DNA of 64,000 nucleotides from Brevundimonas sp. 357 (GTDB lineage Bacteria > Pseudomonadota > Alphaproteobacteria > Caulobacterales > Caulobacteraceae), in NCBI RefSeq assembly GCF_003938605.1, contig NZ_RHWX01000016.1:1-64000 (forward strand), given 5' to 3'. Below the pieces are notes generated by a model. It was not told the origin of the DNA and did not search any database. It worked only from the letters and a program-made list of their open reading frames with translations. Shown piece by piece: positions 39,709 through 42,204 of this stretch (its first letter is position 1; every line of letters begins with the position of its first letter). The position numbers and the translations under genes were made by a program.

Positions 39709-40635
39709 CTAGAGGCGCTTCTTGTCGAATTTATCACAGGCTTGCGAAAACTCGTCCGTCAGCCGAGCGACAAGCTGAGCCGTGGTCGGCACGTCGTGGA
39801 TGGCGCCCGAACCCTGGCCCGCCGACCAGATGGTCTTCCAGGCCTTGGCCTCCTCGCCCATGTCCAGCTTGTGCTCGGGCAGGGACTTCGGGTCGATCTT
39901 GTTCTCGACCAGGGAGGGGGTCAGGAAATTGGCCGGAATGCCGGAGACGGCGGGCGTATAGGTGATGTCCGCCGAGCCCGACTGGACGATCAGATCCTTG
40001 TAGTGGGGCTGGGCCGCGCTCTCGGTCGTGGCGATGAAGCGGGTGCCCATATAGGCGAAGTCGGCCCCCATCATCAGCGCCGCCGCCACGTCCTGACCGG
40101 TCGACAGGGCGCCCGCCAGGATGATGGTCCCGTCATAGAAGCCGCGCACTTCGTTGATCAGGGCGAAGGGGTTCACGACGCCGGCGTGCCCGCCCGCGCC
40201 GTTGGCGACCAGGATCAGGCCGTCGACGCCCGCCTCGGCCGCCTTCCGCGCATGACGCACATTGGCGATGTCGTGGAAGACCACGCCGCCATAGCCGTGC
40301 ACCGCATCCACCACGTCGCGCACGGCGCCGAGCGAGGTGATGATCAGCGGCACCTTCTCCTCGACCGAGACCATCATGTCGGCCATCAGGCGCGAGTTGG
40401 TCGGGTGGATGATGTGGTTGACGCCGAAGGGGGCGGCGTCGGGCTTCAGCCGCGACTTGATCTCGTGCAGCCACTCCCGATAGCCCTCGGTCGTGCGCTG
40501 GTTCAGCGAGGGAAAGGTGCCGATCACGCCCGCATTGCAGGCCTCGACCACCAGGTCCGGCCCGGACACCAGGAACATGGGCGAGGCGATCACCGGCAGC
40601 TTCAGGCCGGACTGCAGGGAAGCGGGAATGGCCAC
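39709..40635 (-). CDS. Nitronate monooxygenase family flavoprotein
   Basis: The 308-residue FMN enzyme has the TIM-barrel pattern of NMO/2-nitropropane dioxygenase proteins: an N-terminal LKLPVIASPMFLVSGPDLV, FMN-binding GLILVANGAGGHAG, then LAGALSTGQDVAAALMMGADF and YMGTRFIATTES. It would oxidise propionate-3-nitronate or related nitronates. Length and motif order are normal. ATG 40635 has TCAGGAGAGACG upstream. Downstream the porin gene runs in the same direction. Confidence 0.92.
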   Translation of the reverse strand: MAIPASLQSGLKLPVIASPMFLVSGPDLVVEACNAGVIGTFPSLNQRTTEGYREWLHEIKSRLKPDAAPFGVNHIIHPTNSRLMADMMVSVEEKVPLIITSLGAVRDVVDAVHGYGGVVFHDIANVRHARKAAEAGVDGLILVANGAGGHAGVVNPFALINEVRGFYDGTIILAGALSTGQDVAAALMMGADFAYMGTRFIATTESAAQPHYKDLIVQSGSADITYTPAVSGIPANFLTPSLVENKIDPKSLPEHKLDMGEEAKAWKTIWSAGQGSGAIHDVPTTAQLVARLTDEFSQACDKFDKKRL

Positions 40636-40715
40636 GGGTCGTCTCTCCTGAAGGAACGCGTTGTTTTAAGCCACGCTAACCGGGTGTCGTCGGGGAAGGC
40701 AATGCGCTCCAGCGC

Positions 40716-40739
40716 CCTTCATCCTTTGTGGGGAGAAGG
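40716..40739. repeat. Degenerate half copy of repeat family A
   Basis: CCTTCATCCTTTGTGGGGAG followed by AAGG resembles the terminal arm of family A but with several changes. It directly abuts the first 37-base direct repeat at 40741. Confidence 0.5.
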
Positions 40740-40740
40740 A

Positions 40741-40777
40741 AAAAACAGAGTCCAATTCGTCTGAATCGTCTGAAATC
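40741..40777. repeat. 37-base direct repeat, left copy
   Basis: The 37 bases beginning AAAAACAGAGTCCAATTCGT are identical to 41581-41617 and in the same orientation, exactly 840 bases apart. The copies enclose a single gene (40821-41528). Each holds an inner near-duplicate TCGTCTGAA. Confidence 0.95.
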
Positions 40778-40820
40778 GCTCCGGCGTATTCACTCCTCTT
40801 TGTCGAGCGGAGCGGCTTGG

Positions 40821-41528
40821 TCAGTGGATGCTGAAAGGCACGGTGACGACGAAGGCGGACCCGACTTCTTCCGGCCGGATCGTCGCGGGGTTCAACCGTC
40901 CCCGACGGACGATTTTGACGGCCGCTTCTCCGAATCCGCTGCCGGGAGGAACTTCGGCGACAACGGCGCAGTTGGTCGGCTTGCCTGACAGCGCCACTTC
41001 ACAACGAACGGCGGCGCCGCCCGAAAGGCCGCGATCGACCGCCCGTTGCGGATAGTCCGATGCTGTCGGACGGGGCGGCGTCAGCCATCGCGCCTCAACG
41101 TTGATCGGCGCTTGAGCCGATGCCTGCGTCGGCTCGGCGTCAAGATTGAACGGCACCCGAACGGCGAAACGGCGAGACGCAGCAGCAGCGCCGTCAACAC
41201 CGGCTACGGAGGCGACGCGTCCGCGTTGCACGATGCCGAGGGCCGCCTGACCAAAACCCATGCCCTGAGGGTCTTCGGACAGGACTTCGCAGTCGACAGG
41301 CGCCCCGTCCGACGCGGCGTCGCAGGCGATGACGGCGGCTCCGCTGGCCCCCGCCTGCAGCGCCGCTTCAGGGAAGTCATCGGCATGAGGTTGCGGCGGG
41401 GCGCTCCAACGCGGCGGCGGCAAGGCGTCGTCGGCATCCTGAGCCGAGGCCGCAGACGGCAGGGCGGTGATGCCTGAAGCGATCAGGAGGACGAGCAGGG
41501 CGGGGCCAGGTCGGGCGGAAAAGATCAC
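40821..41528 (-). CDS. Secreted protein with two tandem TonB C-terminal-like domains
   Basis: The 235-residue protein has a signal peptide (to about residue 29, SAASAQDAD) and two similar halves: residues about 38-130 (ADDFPEAALQAGASGAAVIA) and about 145-233 (ASDYPQRAVDRGLSGGAAVR). Each ends in a GFGxAAxxIVxRGR segment. The halves resemble the TonB C-terminal domain, and each has the Cys pair of such domains. There is no membrane anchor or Pro-rich spacer, so it cannot act as a classic TonB. It may bind TonB-dependent receptors or Ton parts in the periplasm. It is enclosed by 37-base direct repeats. Confidence 0.75.
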   Translation of the reverse strand: MIFSARPGPALLVLLIASGITALPSAASAQDADDALPPPRWSAPPQPHADDFPEAALQAGASGAAVIACDAASDGAPVDCEVLSEDPQGMGFGQAALGIVQRGRVASVAGVDGAAAASRRFAVRVPFNLDAEPTQASAQAPINVEARWLTPPRPTASDYPQRAVDRGLSGGAAVRCEVALSGKPTNCAVVAEVPPGSGFGEAAVKIVRRGRLNPATIRPEEVGSAFVVTVPFSIH

Positions 41529-41580
41529 GGATGCTCCTGAAAAAAAGGCGGCGGGCAGGCGTGGGGTGGGCGCCGCCCAG

Positions 41581-41617
41581 AAAAACAGAGTCCAATTCGT
41601 CTGAATCGTCTGAAATC
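41581..41617. repeat. 37-base direct repeat, right copy
   Basis: Identical to 40741-40777. It lies 52 bases before the start codon of the minus-strand gene at 40821-41528, so it occupies that gene's promoter or leader region. The remaining sequence up to queF (to 41742) shows only GC-rich short hairpins; I see no riboswitch. Confidence 0.95.
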
Positions 41618-41742
41618 CCCCGGCGCCGGACGGCCGCTCTCCCCTCGGCCGCAGGGCAGTCTAGCACAGCTGCGACAGGGGGATGGCCGATTGCGGAGGG
41701 AGCGGCGTTTTCTTTGGCGGGGCGAACGCCTAAATGGCGGGC

Positions 41743-42204
41743 ATGACCCACTATACCGACAGCCTCAGCCAGCTCGGCGTCCAGACCGCCGCCCCGACCA
41801 ACCCGGAAGAGGCGGTGCTGGAGCGCGTGCCCAATCCGCACGCCGACACCCTCTATGTGGCGCGCTTCACCGCGCCGGAGTTCACCAGCCTGTGCCCGGT
41901 GACGGGCCAGCCCGACTTCGCCCACATCGTCATCGACTATGTGCCGGGCGACTGGCTGGTCGAGAGCAAGAGCCTGAAGCTGTACCTGACCAGCTTCCGC
42001 AACCACGGCGCCTTCCACGAGGACTGCACCGTCGCCATCGGCAAGCGCCTGGCCGACCTGCTGCAACCGAAATGGCTGCGCATCGGCGGCTATTGGTATC
42101 CGCGCGGCGGCATCCCCATCGACGTCTTCTGGCAGACGGGCGCGCCGCTGGAGGGCGTGTGGCTGCCGGATCAGGGCGTGGCGACCTATCGTGGTCGGGG
42201 GTGA
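41743..42204 (+). CDS. queF: NADPH-dependent 7-cyano-7-deazaguanine reductase (QueF)
   Basis: QueF reduces preQ0 to preQ1 in queuosine synthesis. The 153-residue unimodular form has the catalytic Cys51 in [13 protein letters not shown], the QueF motif ESKSLKLYL, and HGAFHEDC with the active-site Asp/Glu. [18 protein letters not shown] is also present. ATG 41743 fits the family start better than ATG 41734, which is in frame. Other que genes are not in the window. Confidence 0.95.

Follow-up and report, generated by a model that had tools for sequence, protein, structure and literature searches.

The window analyzed here is a stretch of 64,000 nucleotides from Brevundimonas sp. 357 (contig NZ_RHWX01000016.1; the genome, G000 in our set, comprises 3,290,901 bases in 61 contigs), and the site of interest is the gap between queF and a gene encoding a nitronate monooxygenase (NMO). 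In the window this gap harbors a further gene framed by a perfect 37-base repeat, the two copies of which are in the same orientation, 840 bp apart, and separated by a spacer of 803 bp (Table 1). One copy precedes the GTG start codon of the framed gene and the other follows its stop codon; each also precedes a gene of its own orientation, namely the framed gene and the NMO gene respectively. A degenerate half of another intergenic repeat (CTTCATCCTTTGTGGGGAGAAGG) adjoins the left copy. By eye, the N-terminus of the framed protein resembles a signal peptide, and its TonB-like C-terminal domains, the sole basis of this assignment, make it a probable envelope protein. The TTGCCT hexamer of the putative NMO promoter is present in 11 of 11 queF-NMO sequences compared, with the -10-like hexamer being variable. 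A first-pass annotation of this DNA had described the repeat pair, the single enclosed gene with its two TonB-like domains, the placement of the copies before its start and after its stop, and the abutting half-repeat, all of which were recovered at the same positions. It had also noted that no integrase or transposase is nearby, and this held for 13 proteins encoded from 35.7 to 46.6 kb of the window and submitted to Pfam (two of them without a family, and the set not including every possible small ORF), none of which is an integrase or transposase.

Table 1. Features of the queF-NMO site, in window coordinates
Feature	Position	Strand	Remark
NMO gene (PF03060), right neighbour of the site	39709..40635	-	Pfam
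Putative NMO promoter, TTGCCT-N16-GTTAGC	40675..40702	-	by eye
Degenerate piece of another intergenic repeat, REP-like CCTTCTCCCC..GGAGAAGG	40717..40739		abuts the T-run side of the downstream copy
Element copy downstream of the framed gene and upstream of the NMO gene	40741..40777	-	identical 37 bp
Framed accessory gene, 235 aa protein with two TonB_C stretches (PF03544)	40821..41528	-	Pfam
Element copy upstream of the framed gene	41581..41617	-	minus strand GATTTCAGACGATTCAGACGAATTGGACTCTGTTTTT: three 9-bp words, then T-run
TAGACT, -10-like hexamer in the GTGCTAGACT block, upstream of the upstream copy	41658..41663	-	putative promoter, from sequence
queF (PF14489), left neighbour of the site	41734..42204	+	Pfam

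A 25-base core of the repeat, with up to 3 mismatches, has exactly two matches in the window, which are the two copies themselves, and none in each of 100 shuffles; about 0.01 direct pairs within 1 kb are expected per genome among 9 randomly placed copies, and on these grounds a chance repeat was rejected. An assembly error, for which the first-pass annotation had allowed, was likewise rejected, as the same two-copy bracket is found in the assemblies G056 and G051 of other species. Two named records containing two repeat matches 778 and 779 bp apart are probably these same assemblies and add no support.

The 37-mer is one copy of a dispersed Brevundimonas element made up of three 9-bp words and a T-run. 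In the genome of the window a 19-base core occurs in 9 exact copies, or 11 within 3 mismatches, and a 34-mer is present with up to 3 mismatches in 30 of 131 genomes of the genus. Fetched regions of twelve close genomes yielded 104 element copies (at most 4 mismatches to a 27-mer), i.e. 6-13 collected copies per genome, which fall into 20 flank groups; two of these groups belong to regions counted already, one being the queF-NMO gap at the end of a contig and the other the fpr gap, in which the element is reversed. Most groups correspond to one gap common to several species, among them queF-NMO, gor, thioredoxin-like, DsbA-like, phhA and phoH-dxs, the gene names being, unless Pfam-tested, by recognition of protein starts. 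These gaps separate divergent, tandem and convergent gene pairs, and in the convergent ones the orientation of the element serves no gene. By eye, the element is nearly constant among the clade copies while its flanks drift. G062 and G101 have the element of the fpr-peptidase gap in the opposite direction to that seen in five other genomes (L219 and L225 versus L011 and L055). Exact matches to a 26-mer were found in 68 stretches of named records; apart from the stretches of one MAG labelled Bordetella, every one comes from a record with Brevundimonas in its title. The 37-mer had no match in 72,556 plasmid records at E 0.01, and a plasmid source was accordingly rejected. An Rfam search of the window and 20 element loci returned only tRNAs above the gathering score, with no family over the element, and a literature search based on titles and abstract openings found neither a description of the element nor the 16-mer TTCAGACGATTCAGAC. 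As a short, intergenic sequence in many copies it is reminiscent of the dispersed REP, MITE and Caulobacter CIR repeats, the last from a related bacterium, as named in PMC10969869; it appears to differ from them in its tandem 9-bp words and T-run, with a word that depends on the species, and is not known to have a transposase or target duplication.

In the window's minus-strand orientation the element takes the form of an array of 9-bp words, WTYRGAC+NN, ahead of the T-run. Within the order, 21 of 299 genomes contain at least three consecutive words, namely 19 of 27 in the genus and 2 of 272 outside it, the latter with one match each. The reversed control pattern gave 30 matches in 3 genomes, 27 of them in one genome of another genus of the family (G368), which perhaps carries a separate repeat family. 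The words vary by species, with TTCAGAC, ATCGGAC or ATTAGAC being common in different genomes, and are similar within a species; this word family is a genus-wide feature. Arrays with a T-run and sometimes an inverted word are seen throughout the genus (e.g. L382, L371, L351, L356), and G126 shows up to 58 three-word matches in one genome, overlapping matches counted. By eye, GANTC is present in some words and absent from others.

Some copies of the element also contain an inverted word that could close a hairpin; of 261 arrays (at least two words, distinct context), 75 have such a word close enough behind the T-run, as a raw count. The two bases after the last word pair with the two before the inverted word at a frequency of 0.627, against a permuted mean of 0.429 and a maximum of 0.587 in 2000 permutations. 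On 72 distinct rows the value is 0.653, and sliding the register by 1-6 positions gives 0.500, 0.278, 0.312, 0.382, 0.326 and 0.403 respectively. These covarying bases support a hairpin, short of proof, the rows being related. The pairing of the word with the arm itself (0.982 against a permuted mean of 0.964) was discarded as evidence because the search had demanded the arm.

Orthologs of the framed gene were found in 5 of 131 genomes of the genus (G000, G051, G056, G063 and G068), so the state in which all relatives carry the gene and both copies, which would have spoken against an optional gene, does not obtain. The other four orthologs are 75-82% identical to the window protein, and the next matches among those listed reach at most 51% identity, mostly covering a single domain. 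Each of the five carriers has the gene in the queF-NMO gap, preceded and followed by an element copy; G063 and G068 lack one word of the downstream copy, which in G051 runs into Ns. A tree of 29 genomes, built from six genes and 5,140 columns (G013 was omitted for too few columns, and G023, which has no queF, is absent), places the carriers in a close clade of ten genomes with 100/100 support, five with the gene and five without it. At least three gain or loss changes are required on this tree, in which 13 of 26 inner branches are well supported. No ortholog was found outside the ten-genome clade among the 131 genomes, and since no outgroup carries the gene its absence is probably the ancestral state. 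Among the matches listed for the 131 genomes, none is a donor locus at which the framed gene sits beside an element outside queF-NMO.

The framed gene is also more diverged than its surroundings. The G000 gene is 80.6-83.1% identical to those of the other four carriers, whereas the same comparisons give 96.0-98.5% for queF, 94.9-96.0% for NMO (315-425 columns) and 93.8-97.6% for tal. The divergence of 17-19%, as against 1.5-5.1% for the flanking genes, suggests a separate acquisition or exchange in the lineage of the window over simple inheritance. Identity in 90-column windows ranges from 65% to 97%, and the gene looks mosaic because columns 541-630 are 97% identical to G051 and the first 90 columns only 65%.

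The first-pass annotation had suggested looking for single-copy, empty sites in strains lacking the gene, and such sites were indeed found. Close relatives without the gene have a single TTCAGAC array in the queF-NMO gap, and the sister clade (G001, G047, G065, G067 and G083) likewise has one array and no gene; in more distant species (G009, G002, G020, G016, G003) several arrays may occur in the gap, part of them built from other words. In four gene-less members of the close clade (G007, G062, G101 and G050, the last with its site split over two contigs) the flanks of the single repeat could be compared with those of the two copies in the carriers. Their left flanks are 77-92% identical to the left flank of the upstream copy, as against 53-61% to that of the downstream copy. 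Their right flanks match the downstream copy: that of G007 is 82% identical over 45 columns to the right flank in G063, in sequence that is not REP, and those of G062, G101 and G050 are 95%, 95% and 100% identical over 43 columns to that in G068, in REP sequence. To the right flank of the upstream copy they show 51-61% identity where at least 15 columns aligned. Identity to the window's own downstream copy is 61-72% (33-46 columns), which is low because this edge is variable. Thus four close relatives combine a single repeat and no gene with flanks that form the hybrid expected from exchange between both repeats. The REP flank common to G068, G050, G062 and G101 may have a separate origin, because REPs are often found at that edge of the element; for the same reason the match between G007 and G063 carries more weight.

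The T-run side of the element is a recurrent junction, as the TonB_C gene, a second type of gene and REPs are all found there. Of the 104 clade copies, 30 (from 9 of the 20 groups) have a REP start no more than 33 bp away on the T-run side and 5 have one on the opposite side, and REP sequences occupy the same position in the queF-NMO gap of other genomes. The second gene is found in G049, the nearest relative in the tree, where a DUF1706 gene lies directly after the element at queF-NMO (L147:718-1245), in the orientation that the TonB_C gene has in the carriers and with no second array, implying that genes can enter the site another way. A DUF1706 homolog is present in 4 of 131 genomes; in the three besides G049 it is 52-60% identical, and no array was found within roughly 1.5 kb on either side of it.

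Based on the two-copy state in the five carriers, the single copy in close relatives without the gene, the hybrid flanks, the patchy distribution, the absence from outgroups and the excess divergence, we propose, with a probability of roughly 0.7, that an accessory gene has been gained and lost by recombination between dispersed intergenic copies of the element, with no recombinase nearby. The queF-NMO gap would anciently have held one element; in some lineages a unit of the gene and one element copy would have entered at this resident element, giving two direct copies, and exchange between these copies would remove the gene and leave one element behind. On this reading the gene would have arrived with an element copy attached, and losses as well as gains would have occurred. 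The first-pass suggestion that the pair lets the gene be lost by recombination is thereby supported, and extended to its gain. The exchange itself was probably homologous, either RecA-dependent or by RecA-independent slippage or annealing, rather than enzyme-specific.

A precedent, to which the 37-bp repeat with its 803-bp spacer comes close, is provided by a plasmid-borne cat gene with a perfect 46-bp repeat on either side, which was lost in recA E. coli without Flp; a related case is the H47 island of E. coli K12 with imperfect repeats of 148 and 144 bp, as outlined in PMC5426353. There too direct repeats frame accessory DNA without a recombinase of its own, and the island has empty sites in relatives (PMC5426353). 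As far as that account goes, excision was detected there by PCR, and for the plasmid model also by recovery of the deleted form, whereas in Brevundimonas it is deduced by comparison; furthermore, the Brevundimonas repeat belongs to a dispersed family, and the island repeats are longer and imperfect (PMC5426353). Given the 46-bp cat precedent and the lack of an integrase or transposase among the 13 neighbors, homologous or RecA-independent exchange is most likely, as judged from genome comparison. The natural empty sites illustrate how, in a bacterial genus, a single gene can be rendered optional by a short dispersed repeat where no mobile-element enzyme is apparent.

We also considered other explanations for the bracket. 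The first-pass annotation was borne out in treating the gene as optional, but its proposal of a cassette inserted by site-specific recombination was unsupported. In integrons, a cassette made up of a gene and a site is inserted into a site already resident behind a promoter, and the present locus resembles this in that its gene and site lie at a resident element behind a promoter-like box. On this view a recombinase encoded at another locus would use the element for attachment, and the gene together with one element would form an integron-like mobile cassette captured behind a promoter. The insertion of a gene plus one site at a site is consistent with this, as are the two different genes (TonB_C and DUF1706) in the same orientation directly after the element at one locus, and the inverted words of some copies that could pair and have covarying neighbors. 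However, no recombinase is found among the 13 neighboring proteins and no cassette array was seen, the DUF1706 gene lacks a second array, and the copies, as a dispersed family, keep the same loci across species. Moreover, among 87 element positions of ten genomes the sole direct pairs 0.3-6 kb apart are those of this locus (G000 and G056), with one type of framed gene in place of several different cassettes each with a site; other genes framed by the repeat, for which the first-pass annotation had suggested a search, were thus not found. Taken together, this makes the cassette quite improbable. A mobile MITE- or REP-like repeat could instead have arrived twice, independently, around a resident gene, in which case the bracket would be coincidental and the gene lost otherwise. 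The dispersal of the element through the twelve close genomes is compatible with this, and the uniformity of words within species suggests spreading or conversion, but outgroups have the element without the gene, the gene-less flanks are hybrid, only about 0.01 such pairs are expected per genome, and none of the five carriers has fewer than two copies. We accord two such arrivals little probability.

Alternatively, a regulatory role might account for the retention of both copies: the framed gene and NMO would each have one as its leader or operator, so that the duplication would serve regulation and the recombination would be incidental. The position of each copy before a gene of its own orientation, and the constancy of the element amid drifting flanks, would be in line with such a role, as would -10-like boxes upstream at preferred distances, albeit with weak statistics. 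Nevertheless, the element also lies between convergent genes in an orientation serving none, and the promoter-like sequence of NMO is downstream of the element; retention for regulation alone seems unlikely. A more elaborate scenario would have foreign single genes captured after the T-run in the direction of transcription, with the promoter-like box and array forming a Brevundimonas-specific capture site, the array or hairpin serving as recombination core and a trans-acting factor reading the species-specific words, and this we deem very improbable. Gain and loss by recombination between dispersed copies is the reading we prefer.

As for the element itself, it is possible that it acts as a transcribed leader or small RNA with a hairpin, or as an operator array, or that it is a mere spreading repeat. 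In the clade copies the -10-like boxes before the array cluster at distances of 19-22, 28-32, 41-44 and 51 bp, with others at 12-13, 17, 53, 55 and 58 bp. The best boxes score modestly above shuffles (mean 4.2 versus 2.7, SD 2.4), and Rayleigh tests of their spacing give p of 0.02-0.04 for periods of 10-12 and 0.09-0.20 for periods of 9-9.5, nine periods having been tried, so that helical phasing of these promoter-like boxes is possible on weak statistics. At the tal region, the sole other element locus tried for a clean empty site, the gap was too variable to provide one. Arrays of other words (TTGCAC, TTGGAC, GTGCAC) with a T-run adjoin the TTCAGAC array at L019, L034 and L061 and in the queF-NMO gap of G003 (L153), and a three-word TTCAGAC array is also present in six viral contigs (L345-L350).
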